Assembly: GCF_014207635.1 (NCBI RefSeq) | Contig: NZ_JACHIE010000008.1 | Coordinates: forward strand, 62,001-126,000 | Direction: 5' to 3' | Length of the DNA: 64,000 bases | DNA from: Acetobacter lovaniensis | GTDB lineage: Bacteria > Pseudomonadota > Alphaproteobacteria > Acetobacterales > Acetobacteraceae | Shown here: positions 39,017 through 64,000 of the stretch, piece by piece | Position numbering within the stretch: position 1 is the first letter of the stretch | Layout: each line of letters opens with the position of its first letter | The notes under the pieces: model-generated | The model's input: only the letters and a program-made list of their open reading frames with translations | Databases searched by the model: none | Told to the model about the DNA's origin: nothing | Position numbers and translations under genes: made by a program

Positions 39017-40432
39017 TTGCCTTATCTCCCAGAAACGGCCAGTTTAGAGGTCAAGCGTGTTCCTTCCATTTTGATTTCGAGACTGTGTGTGCCTTCTTCC
39101 AAAGCTACCTGCGCGGTATCTGTCGCGTTCTGTCTTCTTGCGGGCTGCACACCACCTAATTTTAACACCCCCGGCCCCTTGCCGCAGGAAAACGCCTACA
39201 ACGCGATGTTCCCCCAATGGGCAGAACTCTGTGCTGTTTCACAAATTTCCAAAAAACCCGGTTACGGGGCAGATATTGCCGGAGGACCGGGGGGGCATGC
39301 CGTCCTGTTCCTGCATGGGGCCTGTCTGGACCCTTCCTCCCCCTACCCTGTGCTCAAAACCTGCCCGCAGGGTGAGACCGGGGTGAGCATGAACGCCCAT
39401 TTTGTAAATGCAAACTGGGTTGGCATACCCGGACGTGCGTTTTTTTATAATGGCATTCTCAAACCCGGAGACGGCCTGACGCGGGAGGCCTACCAGAGCA
39501 CAAAAAATGCGGCACAGAAGCGCGGCTTATACAGTGCCATTACGTTCCGGGACTGGGCATTGGCAGACAGGCCAGCCAGCACCCCGCCAGAAGACTGGAA
39601 ATACGAAGTTTCCATCGGCACGGATTACGCTATAAGCTACGGACGGGCACGATACTGCGCCCGATTACCGGTCAGTTCGACCCAGATGGTTCAGATTGTC
39701 GATTTTCTGAACAGTCGCAACGCACTGTACCGCTACGGCCCCAAGACATTTGAAACCAATGTCATGCAGGATAACTGCAACCATCTTATCCATAATGCAC
39801 TCGCTGCAACGGACTTCTGGCATGAACTGCCTGTTCATCAGTTCATTCTTCAGGCGGCGCTGACCTTCCCTGTTCCCAAAAACGAGGTGGTCAACCTGCT
39901 GGACCGGGCAGACCGCCACAAACCGGGGGATCTCCACGCACTGTTCCATGACCCGCAAACCCGCCAGACCCTGTTGCGTGATGGTTGGCTACCGGGGGAA
40001 CCGGGGATTATTCTGGACTCTAACCCCGTACAGACCCCCAATGCGGTCTATAACACCAACCTGTCCCTTATTTTTTATGATGACCCGCTGCTTGGCCACT
40101 ACAACCGGGCATTCAGCCGTTACCTGGCTCAACCGCGTTACCATGACCTGCGTGCCAACCTGCTCTGGTATCAAGCACTTTACGCACGGATTGCAGCGGA
40201 ACGTCGGCCTCTCGCTGAGTGGCTGAAAAAAGAGCCTGCGGATTTTGCTGCGTTTTACAATGCCTATTACATATGGCTCGACAACCAGCAGGCTCTTGTG
40301 GCAAAAGGGCTTAGTTTGCTGCCCGCTTCTTCGCCCATTTCCAGCGCATGGCCGCCAGCACGGAGCGAAACGCCAGCAGAGGTGCCTGCACCCGCCAACG
40401 CCCCACAAAATCCCCCGCCAGCAGCGAGATAA
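39017..40432 (+). CDS. Predicted lipoprotein of unknown function
   Basis: A frame of 471 codons. A signal-like stretch ends in FCLLAGCTPP, a lipobox, so the mature part starts at about residue 44. I see GGHAVLFLHGACLD near the N-terminus and DNCNHLIHNALAATDFW at about residue 255; a Cys/His pair of this kind recalls NlpC/P60- or DUF4105-like cysteine hydrolases, but this is only a resemblance. The start is unclear: TTG at 39017 and TTG at 39071 are possible, neither with a strong ribosome site. The proline/alanine-rich last 40 residues overlap the end of the convergent halogenase-like gene by 122 bases. Function not recognised. Confidence 0.7.
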   Translation: MPYLPETASLEVKRVPSILISRLCVPSSKATCAVSVAFCLLAGCTPPNFNTPGPLPQENAYNAMFPQWAELCAVSQISKKPGYGADIAGGPGGHAVLFLHGACLDPSSPYPVLKTCPQGETGVSMNAHFVNANWVGIPGRAFFYNGILKPGDGLTREAYQSTKNAAQKRGLYSAITFRDWALADRPASTPPEDWKYEVSIGTDYAISYGRARYCARLPVSSTQMVQIVDFLNSRNALYRYGPKTFETNVMQDNCNHLIHNALAATDFWHELPVHQFILQAALTFPVPKNEVVNLLDRADRHKPGDLHALFHDPQTRQTLLRDGWLPGEPGIILDSNPVQTPNAVYNTNLSLIFYDDPLLGHYNRAFSRYLAQPRYHDLRANLLWYQALYARIAAERRPLAEWLKKEPADFAAFYNAYYIWLDNQQALVAKGLSLLPASSPISSAWPPARSETPAEVPAPANAPQNPPPAAR

Positions 40433-41579
40433 TGGCATCACGCATACGCAGGATATTCCGGGGATTGAGGAATAACTCCCGTTGCACCGGGTCATTAATC
40501 CCGTAAATCAGCCAGGCTACGCGGCGCATTTCCTGCCGTGTGCAATTTTCCTCATGCCGGGCGGCCTTGCGCCCCTGCGCTGGACTGCGCAGCCATGCCC
40601 GCGCCACCCGTGCCCCACGGTAAGCACTCTTCATGGCCAGCAGCACACCGGACGAAAACACAGGGTCAAGGAACGCAAACGCATCCCCGATCATGTAATA
40701 CCCTTCCCCCCATGTTTTGTCCGCGCAATAGGAGTAGTTTCCGGTGGTTGTCAGTTCCCCCAACTGTTCCGCTGGCGCCAGACGCTGTGAGACACTGGGG
40801 CTTTCCGCCACTTTTTTCCAGAACAGGTCTGTTTTGGGGCCGGTATGGGAGCTGAACGCATTTTTGTCCCCCACAAAACCAACGCTCATAATATTGTCAC
40901 GCAGGGGGATCATCCAGAACCATCCGTCATCCACCAGATGGATGGAAATATAGCCTTCCATATCGGCTTCACGGCGTTCAACATTGCGGAAATGCGCAAA
41001 AATGGCGGCTGTGGAGTTGTTTTTATCGGCATGCCGCGTATGCAAACGCCGCGCCAGAAATCCGTCCCGCCCCGATGCATCCAGCACAAAACGGGGCGTA
41101 AAGGTGTGGGTTTGCCCGGCCTCATCCTGCGCAACAACCTGCGTTGGCTGGCGGGGCGTAAAACGGGCTTCTGCTACCCGCAAGCCTTCAAGGGCTTCCA
41201 CCCCATGAGCCTGAGCGTTGCGGAACAGGATTTCATCAAACTCCGAGCGCCTGACCTGATAGGCATGCGTATCCTTCGGGCGGATCGCATGGCTGAAGGG
41301 AAAAGCCAGCCGCCCTTCACCCCGGTCTGATACAAATTCGGCACCGGGCTTGAACACCCCGATCTCGCGCACCTTATCCAGCACGCCAATGTCGCGGAGC
41401 AGTTCCATGTTGCAAGGCAGCAGGGATTCACCAATATGGAAGCGGGGATGCGGGTCTTTTTCCAGCATAATGACTGACACACCCTGCCGGGCCAGCAACG
41501 TGGCCGCTGTGCTCCCCGCAGGCCCGCCGCCAATAACCAGAACATCGCATTCCCGCGCAGTCATATCCGAACCACTCAT
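40311..41579 (-). CDS. Flavin-dependent halogenase-like oxidoreductase
   Basis: A 422-residue FAD protein. The GxGxxG-type site is VLVIGGGPAGSTAATLLA, followed by HIGESLLPCNMELLRDIG and the lysine in GVFKPGAEF (residue 78), which is where flavin halogenases keep the lysine that relays hypohalous acid. The halogenase hallmark GWxWxIP is present at residues 219-225 (GWFWMIP). The C-terminal FAD loop is MIGDAFAFLDPVFSSGV. It is the last gene of the aryl-polyene-type operon and overlaps the ketoreductase stop by 4 bases. Xanthomonadin loci also carry a halogenase-like gene. A geranylgeranyl-reductase-like activity is the alternative. Confidence 0.85.
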   Translation of the reverse strand: MSGSDMTARECDVLVIGGGPAGSTAATLLARQGVSVIMLEKDPHPRFHIGESLLPCNMELLRDIGVLDKVREIGVFKPGAEFVSDRGEGRLAFPFSHAIRPKDTHAYQVRRSEFDEILFRNAQAHGVEALEGLRVAEARFTPRQPTQVVAQDEAGQTHTFTPRFVLDASGRDGFLARRLHTRHADKNNSTAAIFAHFRNVERREADMEGYISIHLVDDGWFWMIPLRDNIMSVGFVGDKNAFSSHTGPKTDLFWKKVAESPSVSQRLAPAEQLGELTTTGNYSYCADKTWGEGYYMIGDAFAFLDPVFSSGVLLAMKSAYRGARVARAWLRSPAQGRKAARHEENCTRQEMRRVAWLIYGINDPVQRELFLNPRNILRMRDAIISLLAGDFVGRWRVQAPLLAFRSVLAAMRWKWAKKRAAN

Positions 41580-42295
41580 GCCATACCCCCATTAACCCCA
41601 ATGGTCTGCCCCGAAATGTAGGCAGCCTGCTCCGAGGCCAGAAACCCGACCAGATCAGCCACTTCCTCCGGTTGTCCCGCACGGCGGGCCGGAACCACAG
41701 CGGCAATATCAGCTTCGCTCATAACCGCTGCCGTAGCGGGGGACGCAATAATGCCCGGCGCGATGGCATTCACTGTAATGCCACGGCTGCCAACTTCGCG
41801 CGCAAGGGAGCGTACCGCACCCTCCAGCCCGGCTTTTGCTGCGCCGTAATTGACCTGCCCTCTGTTCCCCATCTGCGCGGTAATGGACGACAGGGCAATA
41901 ATACGCCCCCAGCGGGTACGGGTCAGGGGGAGCAGCAGTGGTTGCACCACATTAAAAAAACCATCCAGCGATACGGCCAGCACATCCCGCCACTGGGCCG
42001 GAGCCATGCCCGCCATCGTTACGTCATCATGGGTGCCTGCATTGTGGACGATAATCTGCGGAACGCCCGCTTCCAGCACGGGGGCCAGACCTTGCCTCGT
42101 CGCATCTGCATCTGTCAGGTCGCAGCACCATAATTCAGCGGAGCCACCTTCGGCCCGTATGCGCTCCACAACTTCCTGCGCCCTGCTGCGCGAGGCATGG
42201 GCATGCAGCAGAACATGCAGGCCATTCCCCGCCAGTTTATGGCAAATTGCGGCCCCGATCGGGCTGCTACCACCGGTTACAAGTGCGCGCTTCAT
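41576..42295 (-). CDS. 3-ketoacyl-ACP reductase (ApeQ/FabG-like)
   Basis: A 239-residue short-chain dehydrogenase. ALVTGGSSPIGAAI is the NADPH site (GGSSPIG), HNAG follows, and the catalytic set is S (ALSSITAQMG), Y and K (VNYGAAKAGLEG). It reduces the beta-keto group during each chain-extension cycle. It overlaps the dehydratase stop and the halogenase-like start by 4 bases each, so all three are translationally coupled. Confidence 0.92.
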   Translation of the reverse strand: MKRALVTGGSSPIGAAICHKLAGNGLHVLLHAHASRSRAQEVVERIRAEGGSAELWCCDLTDADATRQGLAPVLEAGVPQIIVHNAGTHDDVTMAGMAPAQWRDVLAVSLDGFFNVVQPLLLPLTRTRWGRIIALSSITAQMGNRGQVNYGAAKAGLEGAVRSLAREVGSRGITVNAIAPGIIASPATAAVMSEADIAAVVPARRAGQPEEVADLVGFLASEQAAYISGQTIGVNGGMA

Positions 42296-42762
42296 TCCGT
42301 CGCCCCTGCGCCAGTTGCAACCCGTTGAAACATGACCGTTCCGCGACCTTGCAAAAGCAAATCCCCAGATTGGGAATGGACGGAAAACCCATAGACCATA
42401 CCAGCGCTATCGACCTGCTCACGCAGGACGTCAATCTGCAACAGGCCATACTCCGCACAATCCAGCCTGTCGCACTGCGCCTGCAGGTCGCGCAGGGCTG
42501 CTAGATAACCGCCTGTTCTGGCCATGGTCTGCCCTGTAAGGGCACCATGGAGGGCAGCGGCCTGCATGGCCATTTCCGCCCCGACCAGCACCCCCAGCCG
42601 TCCAGCATGGCGCAATGGGTTATCGGGGCGCAAATGGGCCGTTGTATGCGCGCGCAACGTGGTATCCGACCAGAAGGAGCAGGTATCCAGCAGGCAACTG
42701 GCCCCCTGATGCGGGATTAAGGCCAGAATATCCACACGCTCCAGCTTTACACGCTCTAACAT
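42292..42762 (-). CDS. Hotdog-fold 3-hydroxyacyl-ACP dehydratase-like protein (ApeP-like)
   Basis: A 156-residue protein with the start ILALIPHQGASCLLDTC, where the PH element holds the catalytic histidine position of FabZ-like dehydratases, and MAMQAAALHGALTG along the hotdog helix. It matches the stand-alone dehydratase of aryl polyene loci in size and position. It should work with the dehydratase domain fused to the acyl-AMP ligase. It overlaps the chain-length-factor-like gene by 7 bases. Confidence 0.83.
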   Translation of the reverse strand: MLERVKLERVDILALIPHQGASCLLDTCSFWSDTTLRAHTTAHLRPDNPLRHAGRLGVLVGAEMAMQAAALHGALTGQTMARTGGYLAALRDLQAQCDRLDCAEYGLLQIDVLREQVDSAGMVYGFSVHSQSGDLLLQGRGTVMFQRVATGAGATE

Positions 42763-43550
42763 GGCTTTACCTCCGCCAGAATGGTCCCCGGCTGGCAGGT
42801 CATATGCACAGTACCCTCCTGCCCGCTGGCAATCTGCTGGAGTAATGCCAGCCCCCCTGCCGCGGGGTTACTCCGCGCAAGCTCTGCAAGTTGGGGTGGC
42901 AAGGTTGTATCCTGCGCCATGGCACCGGGAGCATGGGTTATATCCAGCGTGCAAACCGCGCCCTGCCTGGCCTGTGGCACCAGCACAAAAGCGCAACCAA
43001 ATGTGTTGTGCGTAATACGGACTTTGCCAATTGGCCCGGGTATGGGCAGGTCATAAGCCACAAACAACACGGGAGCATTTTCCACCACGCATTCGGCCGC
43101 CGCCTTAAGTAACCCTTGTGCAAAGGACCAGTCATAACACCCCAATGCCACAACGGGGGCCAGACTGGCATGCCCTATGGTCCAGTACCCCGCAGGCGCA
43201 TTATGCACCGAGTTATGAAACTGGGTTGGAGAAACCTCCCCTCCGGGTGTGCTCAGAGCGGTTAAAATACTATCCACCACGGCCCCATCCCCATTGGAGC
43301 TGGCAAATACCCCCCTTATGTCTGCCGCCTGCACGCCCGCCTGTGCGCAGGCTTCCTCCGCCAGTGCAATTGCCAGGCGGGTTAACGGGCCACAACGCCG
43401 CCGCTCATTGGCGGGCAGGCAGGTCGCAGGCGGAACCTGCACCGGTGCGGGTTCCCAGTCTTCCTGCCCTTGCAAAACACGGGCGGTATGTGGCCACCCA
43501 GACAAACCCGGCCCCCAGACCGAAATCCCCTGCACAGAAACCTGCATCAC
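42756..43550 (-). CDS. Beta-ketoacyl synthase-like chain-length factor (ApeC-like)
   Basis: A 264-residue, shortened thiolase-fold protein of the Ketoacyl-synt_2 type. GVFASSNGDGAVVDSILTAL and SPTQFHNSVHNAPAGYWTIG are family hallmarks. The usual nucleophile cysteine is not in its place (the matching region reads HNAPAGYW), so it should not condense by itself but form a heterodimer with the full ketosynthase encoded just upstream, setting chain length. It overlaps the neighbours at both ends. Confidence 0.87.
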   Translation of the reverse strand: MMQVSVQGISVWGPGLSGWPHTARVLQGQEDWEPAPVQVPPATCLPANERRRCGPLTRLAIALAEEACAQAGVQAADIRGVFASSNGDGAVVDSILTALSTPGGEVSPTQFHNSVHNAPAGYWTIGHASLAPVVALGCYDWSFAQGLLKAAAECVVENAPVLFVAYDLPIPGPIGKVRITHNTFGCAFVLVPQARQGAVCTLDITHAPGAMAQDTTLPPQLAELARSNPAAGGLALLQQIASGQEGTVHMTCQPGTILAEVKPC

Positions 43551-44737
43551 ACGCCCTCAAAAATCAGGCTGCAATTGGTTCCACCAAAACCAAAAGCATT
43601 ACTCATCACCCGCCGGACCGGCTTATGGAGTGTGTCTGTCAGCACATGGCTGTTAAATGTGGGGTCAATCTGCTGCACATTCAGGCAGCCCGGCGCAAAT
43701 CCCGCCCGCATCATAACAAGTGCAAACATGGCCTCGATAATCCCGGAGGCCCCCAGAGTATGCCCCGTCCAGCCTTTGGTGGAAGAACAGGGCACGCTAC
43801 GGCCAAACAGGGTATGCACGGCGTGGTCCTCCATGGCGTCATTCACAACCGTACCGGTCCCATGCAGATTGATATAGTCCAGTTGTGTGGCATCCAGCCC
43901 GGCCCGTTCCAGCGCCTCACGCATGGCCGCCACAGCCCCGCGTGCCAGCGGGTCGGGGGAGGACATATGGTGGCCATCACTACTCACCCCATAGCCAACC
44001 CACCGGCCCATGACGTCAGCACCAGAGCGCGCTCCTTCACGCTCAAGCAGAACAAAACCTGCTCCTTCCCCTACGGAAATGCCGGTGCGCTGCGCGTCAC
44101 ACGGGCGGGTTGGTTCCGCACTCACCAGCCCGAGGGCGGCAAACCCACGTAATGTCATACGGCACAGGCTGTCTGCCCCACCAACGACAACGGCATCGCA
44201 CAACCCAGCCTCCAGCCAGTGACGGGCATCCACAAACGCACGGGATGAGGACGCACAGGCGTTGGAAACACTCAGTATTGGCCCTTCCAGCCCCAGTCGG
44301 GCGGCGACAAACCGGGGAAGTGAGAACAGGTCCTGCGTATGCGCCTGATCAAACTTCATGGGCGGGGCGCCGGTTACCGGGTCCAGTGCCTCATAGGCAT
44401 CTTCGGCTGAAAGAATGCCAGACGTGGAAGTGCCCAGCACCACGGCAATCCTGTGGGCACCATAAAACTGGCGGGCATTCCGCACCGCCTGCGCAAACCC
44501 GTCCTGCGCACAGGCCATATCCGCCAACTGGTTGTTGCGGCACGTAAAGCTAGGGGCAACTCCCTCCAGCACATACGTACCAGCTTGTGGCACACAGCCG
44601 ACATAGCCTGTTTTTATTCCGGCAAAGTCACATGGCGTCAGCCCAGAGCGGCGCGCCAGCAACGCATCTTCGGTCTCGGCCAATCCTCGCCCGATTGCGC
44701 TCAGGACTGTTCCAGCGGTTATGGCGAGTGGTTTCAT
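43547..44737 (-). CDS. Beta-ketoacyl-ACP synthase (FabF/ApeO-like)
   Basis: A 396-residue ketosynthase with a complete Cys-His-His triad: C161 in SNACASSSRA, H292 in NLHGTGT and H326 in KGWTGHTLGASG. GTSTSGILSAEDAY near residue 102 is the variant of the aryl-polyene/fatty acid KS group. It condenses malonyl-ACP with the growing chain, most likely as a heterodimer with the next gene's chain-length-factor-like product. ATGA overlap with the exporter gene upstream. Confidence 0.92.
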   Translation of the reverse strand: MKPLAITAGTVLSAIGRGLAETEDALLARRSGLTPCDFAGIKTGYVGCVPQAGTYVLEGVAPSFTCRNNQLADMACAQDGFAQAVRNARQFYGAHRIAVVLGTSTSGILSAEDAYEALDPVTGAPPMKFDQAHTQDLFSLPRFVAARLGLEGPILSVSNACASSSRAFVDARHWLEAGLCDAVVVGGADSLCRMTLRGFAALGLVSAEPTRPCDAQRTGISVGEGAGFVLLEREGARSGADVMGRWVGYGVSSDGHHMSSPDPLARGAVAAMREALERAGLDATQLDYINLHGTGTVVNDAMEDHAVHTLFGRSVPCSSTKGWTGHTLGASGIIEAMFALVMMRAGFAPGCLNVQQIDPTFNSHVLTDTLHKPVRRVMSNAFGFGGTNCSLIFEGV

Positions 44738-47070
44738 GGTCGGTCTGGTGGTCCAATATTCGGGCGTTGTCCAGCCAGAAGAAAGCCGTAGATCATGGCT
44801 AGCGCAACACCAAACGCAACGGTTATCCCAATTTCGCGCAGTAATGGGGTCTGGCAGGCTGCCAGAAGGCCAAAAGTCAGCACGGTCATGGCATTGCAGG
44901 TCAGCAATGTGCGCATGGTTCTGGCCCGTTCTTCCGCGTCCAGCTGGGAGCGTGCGAAGAACAGAGCGTAATCCAGACTAACGCCCAGCACAAACTGCAG
45001 GGCAATCAGATGAATGAGTGTAAGAGGCTGATGTAACAGGGCAAACGCCCCCAGCACCGTAATCTGCACCGCTCCCACAGCCGCGATTACACGGAACATG
45101 CGCCCGGCATCGCTCAGGCCAACCAGCAGCACGACAAACGCTAACGCACTCCCGACTGCCATCCAGCGCAGGGTACGACCGGTATGATAGGCAGAAAGGC
45201 TATCCACCTCCCTGCGCATATCCAGCACCAGAACATCCGACTGCCCAGCCAGTGCGCGTTCTACAGCCTGATGGTCCTTCACACTTTCCGGAAAAACGAG
45301 ACCGAACCATTGTCCACCCCGTGCAAACAGCAAGGGAGCCATTGCAGCCCCAACCGGCGTTCCCAGCATATCCTGCGGTAACAACGGGGGCATTTGCCGT
45401 GCACGCGCCACATCAGCCACAAATGCATCAAAGGCCGTTGCACTGAAGGGTAGTCCCTCCCTTGCCTGTGCAATAGCTACCTGCAACGCGGCCGGGGGCG
45501 GCAACTGGCTGGCCCGGCTGCGCTGCATCTGCACCGAAGGCAGCAGACGCGCGGCCTCCTGCACACCAGCCAGAGCACCCTTTTGCTGCAATTGCGCCCA
45601 TACTGGCGCCAGAGCCTCCTCCCGCTCCAGCACTGCCTGCGCATTCTGCCCTGAGACTGCCAGCATGAGTGAAGAGTCCGGCACACCAAGATCACGGCGT
45701 AATGAATCGTCCAGTCGCAGGGTTTCTTCTGGCAGGGGGCTAAGGGCTGTCAGGCGTGTGTCCATAAGTGGGGGAGAACGCCATAACGCCACGGCGCAGA
45801 ACATGACAGGAAGGCAGGCCAGAACCCGGTAACGCCGCCAGCCTTCCGCCACAGCCAAAGGTCTGGAGGGCCCGCTCACATACGGTGCCAGATCCGCTGC
45901 CACGACCAGTCCGGGCATGATATGCAGGGTAACAAGCGCTGCCACCACAAGCCCCACGGCAGCAAATACGCCCAGTTGCGCCAGCCCCGGCAGACCGCAA
46001 AACACCATGCCGGTCAGCCCCAGCACAGCCGTTGCAACACCCAACCGCAAACTATGGCCAATACGGTGCAGGGTTGACTGTGGGCCTTCGCCATGGTCAC
46101 GATGCCCGATAAGCAGCACCGGGTAATCCAGCGCAACACCCAGCATGGTCATGCCAAAGCCGAATGCAATGCCATGCACAAAGCCAAAGGCCAGACGCAC
46201 AACAAGCATGGCAGCGCTCAGCGAGAGCAAAAACGGCACACCAATAGCTGCCAGCACCCACAGTGAGCGGAACCGCCAGTAAAGAATACCCACAACCAGC
46301 ACAAAGGAGCACAGCGCCATCATATCCACATCGCGCCGCATGCCCGCGGCACTGGACACTGCAAAAACCGACGGGCCGCTCATGAGCAGTCTGGCCGAAC
46401 CGGGGTGCAAGGCGGCAAATGCCGTCGTTATGGTCTGTTCAACACGAGCCTGCCGGGCAAGGTCCATACCCGGGGCCCGTGTGCGTAACAACAGCAGGGC
46501 ACGAGGCCGGTCCGGCGCAAACCAGACGCCCTGCACCACCCGGACACGCACATCCGGCTCCAATGCGCGCACAGTTTGCACAAAAGCGTTTGTCGGGTCC
46601 CGCAGGAGTGCGTCCGACAAAATGGAACCTGCGGCGGAATCCAGCCCATCCAGAACATTGGAAAACGCCTGCCCCAGTGCCAGTGCATCCAGCTTGCGCA
46701 CAGAATTATCAGGGACAAGCTGGTAGCGATGCTCAAACAGGAGATTACGCAAGGCTTCGGCCTGATCCGTGGCGAAAACGCCATTCAGGACGGAGACAAA
46801 CTGGGAATCCCCAGCAAGGGCTGCATGCAGGCCCAGACTAAGCCGCGCAAGCTCAGGCTCGGGGGCTCCCTCCACCCCCAGCATGATGACAGTACCCGCC
46901 ACACCGCCCTGCACTTCGCGCAATAAAAAGCGTGTTCCGTCATCGTGCCCTTTGGGCAAAAACCCCGCCATATCCATCCGCAGCGGGATATTCAGGAACA
47001 CCAGCACGGCAAACAGAGCCGAAACCGCCAGTGTAATGGCCAGAACCCCGGGCTTTCTACGCGGCCTCAC
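44734..47070 (-). CDS. MMPL/RND-family exporter
   Basis: A 778-residue membrane protein with the two-fold plan of MMPL exporters: one segment, a large periplasmic domain (residues about 40-230), five segments, another segment and periplasmic domain (about 410-600), then five segments. GFGMTMLGVALDYPVLLIGH and FVLGVSLDYALFFARSQ are the conserved SDYAL-type TM4/TM10 motifs. The start is GTG, overlapping the LolA-like stop. It should move the polyene lipid toward the outer membrane together with the LolA-like carrier. Confidence 0.9.
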   Translation of the reverse strand: MRPRRKPGVLAITLAVSALFAVLVFLNIPLRMDMAGFLPKGHDDGTRFLLREVQGGVAGTVIMLGVEGAPEPELARLSLGLHAALAGDSQFVSVLNGVFATDQAEALRNLLFEHRYQLVPDNSVRKLDALALGQAFSNVLDGLDSAAGSILSDALLRDPTNAFVQTVRALEPDVRVRVVQGVWFAPDRPRALLLLRTRAPGMDLARQARVEQTITTAFAALHPGSARLLMSGPSVFAVSSAAGMRRDVDMMALCSFVLVVGILYWRFRSLWVLAAIGVPFLLSLSAAMLVVRLAFGFVHGIAFGFGMTMLGVALDYPVLLIGHRDHGEGPQSTLHRIGHSLRLGVATAVLGLTGMVFCGLPGLAQLGVFAAVGLVVAALVTLHIMPGLVVAADLAPYVSGPSRPLAVAEGWRRYRVLACLPVMFCAVALWRSPPLMDTRLTALSPLPEETLRLDDSLRRDLGVPDSSLMLAVSGQNAQAVLEREEALAPVWAQLQQKGALAGVQEAARLLPSVQMQRSRASQLPPPAALQVAIAQAREGLPFSATAFDAFVADVARARQMPPLLPQDMLGTPVGAAMAPLLFARGGQWFGLVFPESVKDHQAVERALAGQSDVLVLDMRREVDSLSAYHTGRTLRWMAVGSALAFVVLLVGLSDAGRMFRVIAAVGAVQITVLGAFALLHQPLTLIHLIALQFVLGVSLDYALFFARSQLDAEERARTMRTLLTCNAMTVLTFGLLAACQTPLLREIGITVAFGVALAMIYGFLLAGQRPNIGPPDRP

Positions 47071-47642
47071 GGGTCGAGGGTCAGGGTTTGCACATCCCCA
47101 TTGGCCTGTACAATCTTCAGGCTCTGTATGGCGTTATTGCGCCCCTTCAGCACGACCAGACGCACCAGATGCACCGCCTGCGGGGAAAGAGGCACCATGT
47201 TGAGTGTCCATGCGCCAAGGTCTCCCTGTGCGCTCAGGGTGTAATCATGCGCCAGGCTTGCCATGTCGCCTTCCAGCGGAGCACGCATGGTTGTGACCAG
47301 CAGTGCCAGAGCAGGGCTTTGCGACAGCGGCACATTATGCACACTCCCCGCTCCCCGCTGGATGGAGACCATACTCCCGTCGATCACCAGTTTTTCGGGG
47401 CGTGGAGCCTGCGTGTTTTTCTCCAGATATGCGGGGCGATGGAACAGTAGCACGCCACTGGAGAGCAATGGGTGCGTAAGAGCCGCCATATCCTTCTGTT
47501 CATGGAAAGGCTGGGCACGCTCGGGCACCTGCCCCAGATGTGCAATGATCTGTCCGCTCAGGTCTGCTCCGTTATCGGCCGCCCATGCCTGCCCCATGCC
47601 TGCAAGCAGCCCCCATGCCACCAGAAGAGAAAAAACTTTCAC
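47067..47642 (-). CDS. LolA-like outer membrane lipid/lipoprotein carrier
   Basis: A 191-residue periplasmic protein with signal peptide ending in GQAWAAD. The phrase FHEQKDMAALTHPLLSSGVL followed by LLFHRPAYLEK matches the LolA-like proteins of aryl-polyene loci (the F-x-Q-x-K-x-L-x-S-x-G pattern). It starts with GTG, overlaps the acyltransferase stop by 4 bases and the exporter start by 4 bases. It probably carries the product or its lipid anchor through the periplasm. Confidence 0.87.
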   Translation of the reverse strand: MKVFSLLVAWGLLAGMGQAWAADNGADLSGQIIAHLGQVPERAQPFHEQKDMAALTHPLLSSGVLLFHRPAYLEKNTQAPRPEKLVIDGSMVSIQRGAGSVHNVPLSQSPALALLVTTMRAPLEGDMASLAHDYTLSAQGDLGAWTLNMVPLSPQAVHLVRLVVLKGRNNAIQSLKIVQANGDVQTLTLDP

Positions 47643-48541
47643 GGCAGGTCTTTCCAGTAATCATAAAAATTAAACCATGAGAACGGGTGCCTGCGGCACA
47701 GCGCCTCCATCCAGCAGGCGTATCGCTCCGCCGCCTGTTGCACAAAAGCGGACCGTCCCTGCCGGGATGTGGGGTAAGACACATCAAACGGCACAAAATT
47801 TACGTCATAAACACCATCTGCCGCACGTATGGCGCTCACGAGCACAATGGGAACCCCTGTAACCAGCGCCAGCCGAAAAGGCCCTTCGGGGAGGAAAATA
47901 TCCCCTCCCAGCATTTTTGTGCGGATACACCGGTCTGTATCGGGCGCCCTGTCGCCCAGAATACCAACTACCTCCCCACGCCCCAGACTTTCCGCAACGC
48001 GAAGCATGGTATCCACCTGCCCGATGGCAATAATGGTTTGCGCGTACGTGGGGTCCAGCGTCTCCAGCACATCCGTGGCTCCCCCCAGATTGGAACGGTA
48101 CATGAGCATACGTAATGTTATGGAATGCTCCCGCCCCAAGGCCCTGAGCGCCTCAAACGACCCAATATGCGCCCCCAGCAGAAGGCACCCTCGCCCACCC
48201 GCCAGGACCTGTAAAAAACTCTCCCGCCCCGTAACCCGCACATGGGGCATGTCCGTGGTGTTTTGCAGAAAAAAGATACGGTCCAGCACAACCTGTGCGA
48301 AGCACCGCATATGCCGCATAATGGTGATTATTGTGGGGCGGATGGGCAAAGCACGACGCAAATAAGCGCGCGATGCCCTACGGGCCGCCCCGTTATACAG
48401 AAAAAAATACAGCGTAATGGGGCCAAGAAGCCACTCCAGCCGCCGCCTTCCAACCTTGCGGGCCAGAAGCAGCGCCACCTGCATGGCAAAGCGGTTCCCC
48501 CGCTCCGGTACAATCCAGCGCCTGTCAGCCGTGCGTGGCAT
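47639..48541 (-). CDS. LpxL/HtrB-like lysophospholipid acyltransferase
   Basis: A 300-residue protein of the LPLAT family. A basic N-region leads to LLGPITLYFFLYNGAARRAS, then the acceptor motif LLLGAHIGSFEALRALG where H and E are the HxxxxE catalytic pair, and EVVGILGDRAPD. In aryl-polyene loci such an acyltransferase attaches the polyene chain to a lipid head group. It overlaps the upstream ligase gene by 17 bases. Confidence 0.88.
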   Translation of the reverse strand: MPRTADRRWIVPERGNRFAMQVALLLARKVGRRRLEWLLGPITLYFFLYNGAARRASRAYLRRALPIRPTIITIMRHMRCFAQVVLDRIFFLQNTTDMPHVRVTGRESFLQVLAGGRGCLLLGAHIGSFEALRALGREHSITLRMLMYRSNLGGATDVLETLDPTYAQTIIAIGQVDTMLRVAESLGRGEVVGILGDRAPDTDRCIRTKMLGGDIFLPEGPFRLALVTGVPIVLVSAIRAADGVYDVNFVPFDVSYPTSRQGRSAFVQQAAERYACWMEALCRRHPFSWFNFYDYWKDLP

Positions 48542-50186
48542 GCTCTTGTTTTGCCTTTAACACGGCCCGCATGACAGGCTGATCATTCAACTTGGCGGTC
48601 AGGCGCACAACGGGGCCTGTACTCCGGGCCAGAAAAATCACTTTCTGGCCCGGAAGAACCGGATGCAGAAACTTGACCATATCCACATGCAACCCGGCCT
48701 GCCCCAACTGTTCCAGCCCGGCCTCCAGCAGCAAAACGCCCGGTACAACCGGATTACCGGGAAAATGGCCCGGCAGGCAGGGATGATCAGAAGACAGCGT
48801 AAAAGACCCGACTTCCTCCTCCTGCATGGCCTGCCCTGCCATGGCGCGCAACGCCTGCAGGGTCAGCTTGCCCAAGGCATTACGGGGCAAGGCGGGCACC
48901 AGCCTGACACTGCGCGGCAGAAAAACCGGCTCAATCTGCTCCCGCAGGGACAGCAGAATGCTCTGGGCACTCAAGGTGGAAGAGACGGCAAAAACCTGCA
49001 TCCGCGCCAGAACATTGCTGGCATCACCTTCAGGAGGAAGAAATGCCCCATCCTCCACGCCAGGAATGGCGTTTAACACGGCATTCAGCGCAGCAAGCGA
49101 GGCCCGCTTGCCACCCAGTTTGACCACATCCTTCATGCGGCCCAGCAGCAGGAATGTACCATCGCTCTGAGTTTGAATAAAATCGGCGAGCAGATAGCCC
49201 TGCACACCCGGTGCCGAAACTTCAACACCGTCCGCACTCTCATGCGGGGTGACACCTTCATACCATCGCCAGTGCGCCCCGCTTACCGTTCGCCGCATGG
49301 CCATGGAGCCTGTTTCAGTCGAACCGTAAATTTCGGTTACTTCTGTATCCAGAACCTTTTCCGCCTCAGCAGCCAGATCGGAGGCCAGAGGAGCCGAGGC
49401 CGAAACCACGCGCCGGATGGCGGGCCATGTCAGACCCGAACGCAGCATGGTCCTCAGTTGCAGAGGTGTTGTGACCAGAATACGCGGAGCAAACGCCCGG
49501 CTCAGACTGGCCTGCCAGTCCGCCGGATACCCCCCGCTCCCAGCAACCACTGTGACGCGTGTATTCAGGCATTGCAGAACCAGTGCCTCGAACCCGTACA
49601 TATGATAAGGTGGCACTGTGCCGACCAGACAGGCAGGAGCATCATCGGGGTCCAGCAGAACACGGGCGGTCACACTGCGTGTCACCAGCCCACCCCAATA
49701 TTTACGATGCCCGACCGGTTGCCCCGTACTGCCCGAAGTAAAAACCAGAGCCACCAGAGCATCCGCCCTGATGACAGGATTATGGCAGAGCCGGGTCGCA
49801 TGCCCGGCGGAAGAAGACATTGCCAGAACATCTGGCACCACCAGCCCGCTACCAGCCAGCAGGGCGCTCTCGGAATCCCCCTCAACACTGGCGCAGACGG
49901 CATTATGTTCCAGAGCAAGTTCGGCCAACCGTGCAGGATTCCGCTCACTACTCAGAAGCACATACTGCCCGCGCAGTATGGTGGCAGCCAGCAGAAGTGC
50001 AAAACTGCTTACACCTGAGCAGACGGGCACAATCGGGCGGTCTGGTAGCAAAGCGGCTACCGCATGCGCGGCATGCAGAAAACTCCAGCCGGTCACACTG
50101 CCCCGATCAGTCAGAAAAAGTGGTCGATCAGGAGCATAAACAAGGGAAAGATCAGGCCATTGCTGGTCAAACCGGACGTCTGCCAT
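48525..50186 (-). CDS. Acyl-AMP ligase fused to a C-terminal dehydratase domain (ApeH-ApeI-like)
   Basis: A 553-residue two-part protein. Residues 1-440 are an AMP-forming acyl/aryl-ACP synthetase: LVFTSGSTGQPVGHRKYW is the P-loop-like motif, ITEIYGSTETGSMA-type sequence (VTEIYGSTETGSM) follows, and PRNALGKLTLQAL holds the late lysine. From about residue 460 a hotdog dehydratase domain begins: SSDHPCLPGHFPGNPVVPGV is the FabZ-like PGHFPG motif. The ATG at 50186 is chosen, 5 bases after the ACP stop; a longer frame to 50228 would overlap ACP. It loads a starter acid on ACP and dehydrates intermediates. Confidence 0.88.
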   Translation of the reverse strand: MADVRFDQQWPDLSLVYAPDRPLFLTDRGSVTGWSFLHAAHAVAALLPDRPIVPVCSGVSSFALLLAATILRGQYVLLSSERNPARLAELALEHNAVCASVEGDSESALLAGSGLVVPDVLAMSSSAGHATRLCHNPVIRADALVALVFTSGSTGQPVGHRKYWGGLVTRSVTARVLLDPDDAPACLVGTVPPYHMYGFEALVLQCLNTRVTVVAGSGGYPADWQASLSRAFAPRILVTTPLQLRTMLRSGLTWPAIRRVVSASAPLASDLAAEAEKVLDTEVTEIYGSTETGSMAMRRTVSGAHWRWYEGVTPHESADGVEVSAPGVQGYLLADFIQTQSDGTFLLLGRMKDVVKLGGKRASLAALNAVLNAIPGVEDGAFLPPEGDASNVLARMQVFAVSSTLSAQSILLSLREQIEPVFLPRSVRLVPALPRNALGKLTLQALRAMAGQAMQEEEVGSFTLSSDHPCLPGHFPGNPVVPGVLLLEAGLEQLGQAGLHVDMVKFLHPVLPGQKVIFLARSTGPVVRLTAKLNDQPVMRAVLKAKQEHATHG

Positions 50187-50191
50187 CAGCT

Positions 50192-50491
50192 TCACCCAGC
50201 AGTGCGATTTGCCTGCACAAATGCACACAAAGACCGTAATGAACTAAAAATCTGTGCATTATCAGGGTCTTCTGACCGCAGAGCCACACCGTAATCACGC
50301 CCGACAAACAGAGCAATTTCCAGCGCATCAATGGAATCAAGGCCCAGCCCTTCCCCAAACAGGGGGGCTTCGGGAGCGATCTCCTCAGCCATGACTTCAA
50401 GCTGAAGTGCCGCAACAAGCCGTTCTGCGACTTCATGCTCAAAAGGCGTTTGTATTATTGTCGAGCGGGTCGTATTCACAGCATGTCTCAT
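50192..50491 (-). CDS. Acyl carrier protein
   Basis: A 99-residue carrier protein. The phosphopantetheine attachment site is LGLDSIDALEI with serine 53; upstream APEAPLFGEG is typical of the ACPs in aryl polyene operons. The frame stays open upstream to 50533, but the ATG at 50491 gives a normal ACP length. It is the first gene of the ten-gene operon. Only one ACP is found, while the described E. coli-type loci have two. Confidence 0.88.
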   Translation of the reverse strand: MRHAVNTTRSTIIQTPFEHEVAERLVAALQLEVMAEEIAPEAPLFGEGLGLDSIDALEIALFVGRDYGVALRSEDPDNAQIFSSLRSLCAFVQANRTAG

Positions 50492-50507
50492 GTTAAGTGC
50501 AGATACC

Positions 50508-51194
50508 ATGAGTGAGCTAACACAAACGCGCATGATCGCAAAACCAGCATGGCTGGAAAAACGGCCTGCTTTCCGGCGCGGAACTAGCGCTATGCTTGTC
50601 TCTCTATCAATTCTTCTTGGACATATACCCTATGCATCTTCTGTAATAATTCCCATTAGTATCGCCTCGCTCACCATGCAGTGTATGGCGTTTGCTCTTC
50701 TGAGCCTGCATCTTAAAAAAAGTGCCGTTATGGCCATCTGTCTTGTGCCTCTGACCATATACTGGCCGCATCAGGTAACGGTCGCCGATGGCTGTGTGCT
50801 TTATGCGGTCTCTCTGGGCATGATGCTGTTCATTTTTGGCCGTTCCCTCCTGCCATCCCGACAGCCTCTTGTTGCTGTTGTGGCCAGCCGGGTACATGGC
50901 CCTTTACGCGCGGATATTGCACGCTACACACATGCCCTGACCATTGTGTGGACACTGTTTTTTGCCGCAGCCCTGATTACACCACTCCTTCTGTTCTGGC
51001 TTGGCCCGACCGGCACGTGGCAGTGGCCGCTATCTGGCGGCACATTTGCCATGGCGCTGCTGTTCATGCTTGTGGAATCCGGGGTCAGGCGCCTTGTCAT
51101 ACGCAATTTCCAACACGTATCGCTCAGGACGACAGTCGCGGCTTTCCGCAGCACGCACGCCTCAACCATGCGAACAACAACCTCAGATGCATAA
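50508..51194 (+). CDS. COG4648-like membrane protein (ApeG-like)
   Basis: A 228-residue protein with about six membrane segments. The sequence ASRVHGPLRADIARYTHALT followed by IVWTLFFAAALITPLLLFWL resembles the COG4648 membrane protein found in aryl polyene clusters, where its exact role is unknown. It is divergent from the ACP gene, with only 16 bases between start codons (an ATG at 50490 would even overlap). Its last 71 bases overlap the convergent glycosyltransferase gene. Confidence 0.75.
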   Translation: MSELTQTRMIAKPAWLEKRPAFRRGTSAMLVSLSILLGHIPYASSVIIPISIASLTMQCMAFALLSLHLKKSAVMAICLVPLTIYWPHQVTVADGCVLYAVSLGMMLFIFGRSLLPSRQPLVAVVASRVHGPLRADIARYTHALTIVWTLFFAAALITPLLLFWLGPTGTWQWPLSGGTFAMALLFMLVESGVRRLVIRNFQHVSLRTTVAAFRSTHASTMRTTTSDA

Positions 51195-51873
51195 AGACGA
51201 GGCGTATATTATCCCGCACATAACGAAAATGAGAAATACCGCCATCCGCTGCATTGAAATACTGCACCATGGCTGGTTTATTGAGCACGGGCGCTCCCTG
51301 CCAGACCATACGCACCACAACCTCAGGGTCAAAGTCAAAACCCCGCATATAGCGTGATGCCTGAAGAACCCCCACCAGAAGCCTGAGCGGGTAAACCCTG
51401 AAGCCAAACAGGCAGTCCTTAACTGCCCCCCCTGTTTCCATACCAATGAGAATATTGGATAACTTGCGCCCCCATATGCGCAGGAGCGGCGCTTCCGGCC
51501 CAAAGACTGGCACACCCAGCACCAGAGCCTGCGGGACAGAGCAGGAGAGCGATATAAAATCCGGCACGGCCTGAACTGGGTGCTGGCCATCTGCATCCAT
51601 GGTCAGGACATGCGTATACCCTGCCTGCATGGCCCATAACGCCCCCTGCAAAACAGCCTGCCCCTTCCCTCCATTCTGCGTCAGGTGCAGAATTTTAAGC
51701 CCCGCATGTGCTGGCAGCAGATCATCCAGTGTGCGTTCGCTGCCGTCGGTACTGCCATCTGTCACCACCACCACATCCGGCCAGACGGCCAGCACGGCAG
51801 AGACCGTACTCCGTAGCAATGGTCCGGAATTATAGGATGGAACGAGAACAATGCAGCGGAACATGGCAGACAT
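51124..51873 (-). CDS. Family 2 glycosyltransferase
   Basis: A 249-residue GT-A-fold enzyme. It opens with CIVLVPSYNSGPLLRSTVSAV, then VVTDGSTDGSERTLDDL, GGKGQAVLQGALWAMQAGYT and the metal site LTMDADGQHP. This is the dolichyl-phosphate-mannose-synthase-like branch also found in aryl polyene loci. ATG at 51873 or 51864 are both possible starts. It probably glycosylates a lipid head group. The end overlaps the membrane protein gene by 71 bases in opposite orientation. Confidence 0.87.
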   Translation of the reverse strand: MSAMFRCIVLVPSYNSGPLLRSTVSAVLAVWPDVVVVTDGSTDGSERTLDDLLPAHAGLKILHLTQNGGKGQAVLQGALWAMQAGYTHVLTMDADGQHPVQAVPDFISLSCSVPQALVLGVPVFGPEAPLLRIWGRKLSNILIGMETGGAVKDCLFGFRVYPLRLLVGVLQASRYMRGFDFDPEVVVRMVWQGAPVLNKPAMVQYFNAADGGISHFRYVRDNIRLVFMHLRLLFAWLRRACCGKPRLSS

Positions 51874-51966
51874 ACCTGTGTGGCCAAAACCGGATAAAAC
51901 ATGGCAGGACTGGTCCACATACCTCAATTACGATAAGAACCGAATACCAAGATCATTGAACCGGAA

Positions 51967-52716
51967 ATGGCAATGTCTGAGCGCATACCCTGCCCACCTC
52001 ACCCCGTCCTGCCTGACTATTACCGCACCAAGGGGGAACACAGGCAGTTTGTTCGCTCTATTTTTGACAAAACAGCCTGTTATTATGACCGGATCAACGC
52101 GGTTTTTTCGCTTGGATCAGGTAAGTGGTACCGGCGCTGGATGCTGCGCATGGCCGGGCTGCGCGCAGGGCAGACATTGCTGGATGTTGCAACCGGCACG
52201 GGTCTGGTTGCGCAGGAAGCGGCAACCATAACAGATGCCGCCAACATTATCGGGCTGGATATGAGTGCAGGCATGCTCGGACAATGCCGTGACAAGTTGC
52301 CCATTCAGGTTGTTCTGGCGGATGCTCAGGCCCTGCCGGTTGCTCCGGCCAGCATGGACATGCTGAGCATGGGTTACGCGTTACGGCATGTGCATGACCT
52401 GAGGGCAACCTTTGCAGGCTATCTGGATGTACTCAAACCCGGCGGGCATGTGCTGATTCTGGAAATCGGGCGCGCTGACAACCGCCTTGTCCAGCTTCTG
52501 CTGCGTTTTTACCTTGGCCGGGTTGTACCGCTGCTATCCGGTGTTGCAGCCTCGCAGGACAGCAGAAGGCTCATGGCCTATTACTGGGATACGATTGAGG
52601 AGTGCGTGCCTCCGGCCCGTATTCTGGACACCATGCAATCCGTAGGGTTTAGCAAAGTGCGCAAACACACGTCATTTGGTGTGTTTCACGCTTATATGGC
52701 CGAGCGACCGCTATAA
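51967..52716 (+). CDS. UbiE/COQ5-like SAM-dependent methyltransferase
   Basis: A 249-residue class I methyltransferase. VRSIFDKTACYYDRINAVFS followed by LGSGKWYRRWML is the UbiE-type N-terminus; the SAM site is LLDVATGTGLVAQEA and the late MGYALRHVHDL is also UbiE-like. It could be a quinone methyltransferase paralogue or the methyltransferase of the adjacent polyene locus. It is divergent from the glycosyltransferase, with a 93-bp gap, and followed by a strong hairpin. Confidence 0.85.
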   Translation: MAMSERIPCPPHPVLPDYYRTKGEHRQFVRSIFDKTACYYDRINAVFSLGSGKWYRRWMLRMAGLRAGQTLLDVATGTGLVAQEAATITDAANIIGLDMSAGMLGQCRDKLPIQVVLADAQALPVAPASMDMLSMGYALRHVHDLRATFAGYLDVLKPGGHVLILEIGRADNRLVQLLLRFYLGRVVPLLSGVAASQDSRRLMAYYWDTIEECVPPARILDTMQSVGFSKVRKHTSFGVFHAYMAERPL

Positions 52717-63143: not shown

Positions 63144-64000
63144 TCAAAACTGCAGCTTCTGGCCAACACCAAGTCTGGTTGCCTTGTTCAGCAGAGCGGC
63201 ACCCAATGCAATATCGGTAATGCTCAACCCACGGTGCCAGAACAGGATTGTCTCGTCATCATTTTCCCGCCCCAGTAATTTTCCCCCGACAATATCACAC
63301 AACTCTGCGTAAAGAGTTTCACGCGTGATCTTCCCCTGATCCACGTGCTGGCGCAGAGCACCGTATGGACGGCCCGGACCGCACTGCCCCCAGTCATCCA
63401 CCACCACTTTATCGATCACGTCAGTCAAGCTGAGTTCGAGTGCGCTCATGGTACCGTATGGAATAATCAATGCGCCCTTGCGAACCCACTCGGTTTTCAG
63501 GAGTGGTGCTGGCTCTGGTAGCCGACTGGCCTCTACCAGAATATCCGCCCTGTCCAGACAGGCCTCCCATGTTGTTGTAACAGTCACCTTTTTACCCAGA
63601 TCCTGCTCCAGCCTCTGAGCAAAGGCCTCCCGACTTTCCGGTCTACGGGAATGCACACGGATTTCCTCAAAATCAAAGATATGATCAAGTAGTCTGATAT
63701 TCCAGTACGCCGTTCCGCGTGTACCAATATGGCCAAGTATGCGGCTATTTCTGGGAGCCAGAAAACGCGCGCCCAGTGCGGTCATCGCTCCTGTGCGCAT
63801 ATCTGTAATCCGTGTTGCGTCAATAATAGCTTTAGGCATGCCGGTCACGGGGTCAAACAGATTGAGCACCGCCATTTCGGATGGCAGATTCTGTTTGTAA
63901 TTGTTTACAAAATCACCAACAATTTTCACACCAGCCAGACCAAGTGGCTGAATAACACCACGCAGGACATTAAAATGACCTTTGTCCGAACTCTCGGGCA
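63144..64000 (-). CDS. Ornithine cyclodeaminase/mu-crystallin family protein (5' end outside window)
   Basis: The last 285 residues of an OCD-family enzyme; the frame is open to the right edge. It has AVLNLFDPVTGMPKAIIDAT, the arginine-rich ITDMRTGAMTALGARFLAP and the Rossmann region ILGHIGTRGTAYWNIRLL, then EIRVHSRRPESREAF. The GTG at 63929 could be mistaken for a start, but conserved-looking residues (HFNVLRGVIQPLGLAGVKIV) lie before it. It is only distantly similar to the OCD gene at 12386. Substrate unknown; amino or imino acid reduction or deamination is expected. Confidence 0.87.
   Translation of the reverse strand, partial: PESSDKGHFNVLRGVIQPLGLAGVKIVGDFVNNYKQNLPSEMAVLNLFDPVTGMPKAIIDATRITDMRTGAMTALGARFLAPRNSRILGHIGTRGTAYWNIRLLDHIFDFEEIRVHSRRPESREAFAQRLEQDLGKKVTVTTTWEACLDRADILVEASRLPEPAPLLKTEWVRKGALIIPYGTMSALELSLTDVIDKVVVDDWGQCGPGRPYGALRQHVDQGKITRETLYAELCDIVGGKLLGRENDDETILFWHRGLSITDIALGAALLNKATRLGVGQKLQF

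Follow-up and report, generated by a model that had tools for sequence, protein, structure and literature searches.

Clusters for the biosynthesis of aryl polyene (APE) pigments have been described in several forms; the papers are cited here and below for the passages drawn on. In the xanthomonadin type, a ketosynthase (KS) stands next to a short chain-length factor (CLF), there is neither a thioesterase (PMC3691225) nor a second acyl carrier protein (ACP) (PMC8253772), and the Xanthomonas clusters carry a halogenase gene; in Lysobacter, where the halogenase is missing, the KS and short CLF make the pigment with the support of a XanB2-type gene (PMC3691225). The arcuflavin cluster of Azoarcus sp. 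BH72, divided between two unlinked loci, includes the halogenase gene arcA and the chorismatase gene arcB (XanB2) (PMC3949708). The E. coli APE cluster instead encodes two ACPs, the thioesterase ApeK, the DUF3261 protein ApeN and ApeR, has no flavoprotein and depends on 4-hydroxybenzoate derived from UbiC (PMC8253772). Among the Acetobacteraceae, 28 of 96 acetous strains and 19 of 43 acidophilic ones have been reported to carry APE clusters, whose KS-linked genes include a probable halogenase (PMC8776678). The locus described here belongs to this family. It lies in a stretch of 64,000 nucleotides (the window; positions 62001-126000 of contig C8, NZ_JACHIE010000008.1) of the Acetobacter lovaniensis assembly GCF_014207635.1, and is best explained, with a probability of about 0.7, as a cluster for the synthesis and export of an APE, xanthomonadin-like in its layout, at approximately 39017-52716, with a starter acid produced outside it through neither UbiC nor XanB2.

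The centre of the cluster consists of ten minus-strand genes at 40311-50491, neighbours overlapping by 4-37 bp (Table 1), which an earlier note on this DNA had correctly read as tightly overlapping genes of an APE- or xanthomonadin-like set. Of the gene names given in that note, nine were returned by Pfam or NCBIfam, while the stand-alone dehydratase owes its name to its place and to homologues in the same place at related APE loci. The KS, short CLF, ketoreductase (KR), dehydratase (by synteny), ACP and acyl-AMP ligase are thus found together, along with an export and anchoring set of LolA-like carrier, MMPL exporter and acyltransferase, and the active-site motifs of the KS, KR, ACP, ligase and flavoprotein are intact. 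Families, motifs and synteny agree, the latter being shared with named Acetobacter and Acidomonas loci and with loci from Roseomonas, Azospirillum and Caballeronia. Among named species, Acetobacter fabarum has the nearest KS (97% identity), followed by A. lambici, A. okinawensis, A. persici, Acidomonas methanolica and A. indonesiensis (71-84%). A scan for promoter-like sites (9 seen, 7.3 expected) and terminator-like sites (23 seen, 15.3 expected) was uninformative.

The absence of an ammonia-lyase, a thioesterase, a second ACP and a second full KS, also remarked upon previously, holds at window positions 30001-60000: the corresponding Pseudoalteromonas APE queries for thioesterase, second ACP, ammonia-lyase and DUF3261 had no match there, and the query for the second KS found only the window KS (35%). 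The whole genome contains one further KS match, 42% identical to the first. With no second ACP, ApeK, DUF3261 ApeN or ApeR at these positions, an E. coli-type cluster is ruled out, although the KS and CLF, KR, dehydratases, ligase, LolA, exporter, acyltransferase and glycosyltransferase are common to both (PMC8253772). The set shared with the arcuflavin cluster comprises the halogenase, the single ACP, the AMP ligase, the dehydratases and KR, together with exporter, LolA, acyltransferase, glycosyltransferase and methyltransferase; the Azoarcus loci differ in the presence of arcB and of polysaccharide deacetylase, antiporter and MipA-type genes (PMC3949708), the last three of which had no match at 30001-60000. 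With the xanthomonadin clusters the locus shares the KS with its adjacent short CLF, the lack of a thioesterase and the halogenase gene of Xanthomonas, and differs in the dehydratase fused to its ligase and in the missing XanB2-type gene (PMC3691225). Because XanB2 is missing (PF21168 is absent from the genome), the locus does not strictly qualify as a xanthomonadin cluster, even though it has the single ACP, the single KS/CLF pair and the halogenase-like gene and has no thioesterase. The gene-content comparison that had been proposed points to a xanthomonadin-like cluster and not one of the E. coli type, and for the xanthomonadin type a single ACP, a single KS and no thioesterase are no anomaly. 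The novelty of a reduced gene set with a halogenase is not supported, as this is the pattern already published for xanthomonadin and arcuflavin (PMC3691225, PMC3949708), with an Acetobacteraceae version that shares the KS-linked adenylate-forming enzyme, dehydrogenase, probable halogenase and transport genes (PMC8776678). The portions of the latter paper drawn on here do not discuss the starter gap or the lipoprotein (vide infra). A KS on a plasmid of Variovorax paradoxus VAI-C (L017:13989-15194), 46% identical to that of the window, stands alone with no APE genes around it, and for the present locus it was not taken as a precedent.

The absence of a starter gene, for which the earlier note had suggested an acid supplied from elsewhere, extends to the whole genome, in which no UbiC (PF04345), XanB2 (PF21168) or Rv2949c-type lyase (PF01947) was found, and in which UbiA is present above its cut-off. 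Among controls, PF04345 matches the E. coli genome and PF01947 matches in three; PF21168 matches none of 14 controls, yet does match nine of 200 relatives. These 200 Acetobacteraceae genomes, an even draw from a larger group, were scored for the KS (E <= 1e-60), the flavoprotein (E <= 1e-30) and the methyltransferase (E <= 1e-40), and 71 have the KS. UbiC was detected in four, none of which has the KS, and XanB2 in nine, seven of them KS-bearing and five with the two genes within about 12 kb; 64 of the 71 KS-bearing genomes therefore have neither. The figure is 59 of 66 when five genomes with KS scores of just 215-257 bits, which may represent another subtype, are set aside. The starter gap is real, extends through the family sample and is wider than the window alone could show. 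The source of 4-hydroxybenzoate in bacteria with neither enzyme is an open question in print (PMC12423496, PMC5615194), for instance in Hyphomicrobium (PMC12423496), and no paper on the aryl polyene starter unit or chorismatase in Acetobacteraceae was found in the open-licence literature.

Four of the five linked XanB2 loci were examined (G086, G130, G158 and G170), and APE genes surround XanB2 in all four. The order in G158 is two flavoproteins, dehydratase, CLF, KS, MMPL exporter, LolA, acyltransferase, ligase, ACP, divergent membrane protein, methyltransferase and XanB2, a layout close to that of the window except that it includes XanB2 and has neither KR nor glycosyltransferase. These data are compatible both with loss of XanB2 by most lineages and with its gain by a small number. 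As the sister clusters contain XanB2 along with the same type of ligase, hydroxybenzoate is indicated as the starter. A different acid, such as 4-aminobenzoate or one obtained from plants or food, would explain the absence of UbiC and XanB2 in a genome where none of the known hydroxybenzoate sources was found, and 4-aminobenzoate is reported as a substrate of alphaproteobacterial UbiA, in the same paper that describes Hyphomicrobium as having neither enzyme (PMC12423496). However, the sister clusters speak against another acid, and this alternative is regarded as doubtful.

An aromatic ammonia-lyase could provide a cinnamate or coumarate starter, and the genome-wide search for such an enzyme or a chorismatase, advised in the earlier note, returned two PF00221 proteins: HutH, with hut-like neighbours by eye, and C8:126204-127745, an open reading frame that starts 204 bases beyond the end of the window. 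The latter is the nearest gene of the ammonia-lyase family, about 14 kb from the cluster, and the Acinetobacter and Pseudoalteromonas APE clusters do hold a gene of this family. However, the Ala-Ser-Gly triad that forms the methylideneimidazolone (MIO) group in HutH and two APE lyases is replaced by Ser-Glu-Gly with a one-residue gap, and the gene adjoins one of the ornithine-cyclodeaminase family, outside the APE gene order. Judging from its sequence, the protein is perhaps not an ammonia-lyase; with the triad replaced, it was ruled out as the starter source, a role that is very improbable. The surrounding stretch (G000:C8:125144-127745, or L006:144-2745, the left part being window positions 63144-64000) contains this gene, the ornithine-cyclodeaminase-family neighbour and, by eye, a TonB receptor.

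In the preferred reading, of an APE cluster with an external non-UbiC, non-XanB2 starter, the AMP ligase would load a benzoic-acid-type starter onto the single ACP, and the KS/CLF pair, KR and two dehydratase activities would extend it into a conjugated polyene. The acyltransferase, glycosyltransferase, LolA-like carrier and MMPL exporter would serve in lipid attachment and transport to the outer membrane, and the methyltransferase and halogenase-like flavoprotein would tailor the aromatic head. The acid used as starter would come from outside the cluster, from neither UbiC nor XanB2, and plausibly from the source used for ubiquinone synthesis. Gene content, family membership, conservation and co-occurrence were observed directly; from these we infer the reactions, the product, its halogenation and the shared source of the acid.

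The flavoprotein at the end of the operon has a halogenase fold, with the halogenase lysine and GWxWxIP motif that had been recognised earlier, and its membership in the halogenase family is supported. It is 27-31% identical to the solved halogenases PltA, Mpy16, Bmp2, CndH, CmlS and FasV, and in the alignments it is one residue shorter in the region of the lysine. This lysine and the WxWxIP residues also occur in flavoproteins without assigned activity, 33% identical, in APE clusters of Pseudoalteromonas (L020:12038-13279) and Acinetobacter (L021:13995-15290); these clusters also contain an ammonia-lyase, and the annotation assigns their flavoproteins no role. The Cytophaga protein 3nix, which has no assigned function, scores level with true halogenases, and the QhpG and LodB models also match; QhpG is a monooxygenase with a structure most like that of CmlS (PMC7876137). 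It is possible, if rather less likely, that the protein acts on the aryl head or chain as an oxygenase, such as a hydroxylase of the ring, or as a flavin oxidoreductase of some other kind, and that the polyene is unhalogenated. Halogenation of the product is unproven.

The flavoprotein was detected in 68 of the sampled genomes and occurs together with the KS in 65, leaving six genomes with the KS alone (G002, G015, G019, G082, G113 and G167) and three with the flavoprotein alone (G017, G039 and G163); counted by genus, the KS is present in 42 of the 43 genera that have the flavoprotein. In 36 of the 65 genomes the two are within 15 kb on one contig and in four they are farther apart on one contig (15.3 kb in one case, and in two others close to either end of a single 2.7 Mb contig), while in 25 they are on separate contigs, many of these genomes being fragmented drafts. 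In the plasmid collection, the best five flavoprotein records all hold a KS, about 4-15 kb away. By the genus divisions of the tool, the sample contains three further genomes from the genus of the window, and the KS, flavoprotein, lipoprotein and methyltransferase are absent from all of them. A tandem pair of flavoproteins, 59% and 55% identical to that of the window, is present at G158:C25:79365-81991.

Several observations weigh against an APE cluster with an external starter. No aryl polyene product is known for the cluster, and the stand-alone dehydratase has no Pfam or NCBIfam family match. The QhpG model matches the flavoprotein with 167 bits, as compared with 198 for CmlS, both below cut-off. 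The assembly is a 3.46 Mb draft split into 57 contigs, and a starter gene may for this reason be overlooked in a gap, though its completeness rating is 99.99%. Finally, no KR was found in three of the XanB2 stretches (G130:C59:158000-177000, G158:C25:76000-94000 and G170:C1:138000-156000), between dehydratase and flavoprotein, and APE gene content is therefore more variable than a fixed pathway suggests.

The new lead from this locus is an unclassified lipoprotein, which is a tangible candidate for an additional step in the maturation of aryl polyene lipids. Among the sampled genomes, 27 of the 29 that carry it also have the KS, and in six relatives examined it lies directly upstream of the KS, the place of ApeN in E. 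coli. His94 and Cys254 are invariant in all 41 aligned sequences. There is no Pfam or NCBIfam match (hmmscan against Pfam is empty at E <= 10), a PDB profile search with the alignment gave nothing at E <= 1, and Foldseek alone gave no match for the model below E 0.001. From a fold comparison of the model, the protein may be papain-like, with a Cys/His pair. The label DUF4105 was rejected, since it comes from the source names of two relatives and is not reproduced by hmmscan. No paper tying an aryl polyene to a papain-like lipoprotein was found in the open-licence literature.

Table 1. Genes of the A. lovaniensis APE cluster, in window positions.
Feature	Position	Strand	Assignment
Unclassified lipoprotein	39017-40432	+	Cys44 follows LLAG; gene convergent with that of the flavoprotein; associated with APE clusters
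Halogenase-like flavoprotein	40311-41579	-	Trp_halogenase/FAD_binding_3; Lys77, G219WFWMIP
Ketoreductase (FabG-like)	41576-42295	-	FabG family; YxxxK
Stand-alone dehydratase (ApeP-like place)	42292-42762	-	Synteny
Short chain-length factor	42756-43550	-	PF13723 (Ketoacyl-synt_2); synteny
Ketosynthase	43547-44737	-	NF006618, 480.8 bits (cut-off 407); ACASSS
MMPL/RND-type exporter	44734-47070	-	PF03176
LolA-like carrier	47067-47642	-	PF19574 (LolA_3)
LpxL-type acyltransferase	47639-48541	-	PF03279 (Lip_A_acyltrans)
Acyl-AMP ligase fused to FabA-like dehydratase	48525-50228	-	PF00501 + PF07977; TSGSTG, HFPGNPVVPG
Acyl carrier protein (frame open to 50533)	50192-50491	-	PF00550; NF006617, 117.8 bits (cut-off 70); DSI
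Hydrophobic membrane protein, divergent	50490-51194	+	No family match; homologues at APE loci
GT2 glycosyltransferase	51124-51927	-	PF00535; homologues at APE loci
UbiE-like methyltransferase	51967-52716	+	PF01209; KS in 30 of 31 genomes carrying it

The limits of 40311-50491 originally given to the operon are too narrow for the cluster, as the lipoprotein, membrane protein, glycosyltransferase and methyltransferase genes are either part of it or strongly associated with the cluster. The APE loci of A. fabarum, A. lambici, A. indonesiensis, Azospirillum and Caballeronia insecticola all have homologues of the last three. In Roseomonas the locus includes the glycosyltransferase and methyltransferase, and the protein in the place of the membrane protein is 29% identical to that of the window. 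We take the membrane protein to resemble the COG4648 protein known from APE clusters. No methyltransferase was detected in the stretches retrieved for Acidomonas, A. okinawensis and A. persici, of which the A. persici stretch begins at the ACP. In this A. persici locus (L015), the ligase and acyltransferase matches are about 5 kb apart and do not adjoin, and the gene for the lipoprotein is split in two, so that either the locus is disturbed or the assembly is at fault.

A pigment cluster with a halogenase-like gene is ordinary, and this one is of a known kind, already described in plant-associated bacteria. Its main value lies in the starter gap, which is testable and holds across the family sample: the great majority of sampled KS-bearing Acetobacteraceae have neither known enzyme for the usual starter, which is also the ubiquinone precursor. 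One tentative and rather improbable extension is that the Acetobacteraceae branch of APE biosynthesis combines an unrecognised ring-acid enzyme, distinct from UbiC and XanB2 and serving both pigment and ubiquinone, with a papain-fold lipoprotein that replaces ApeN and attaches, trims or anchors the APE lipid at the outer membrane. If this were true, pigment colour could provide a visible screen for the missing ring-acid enzyme, and an easy one, because the coloured product would need the ubiquinone precursor too.

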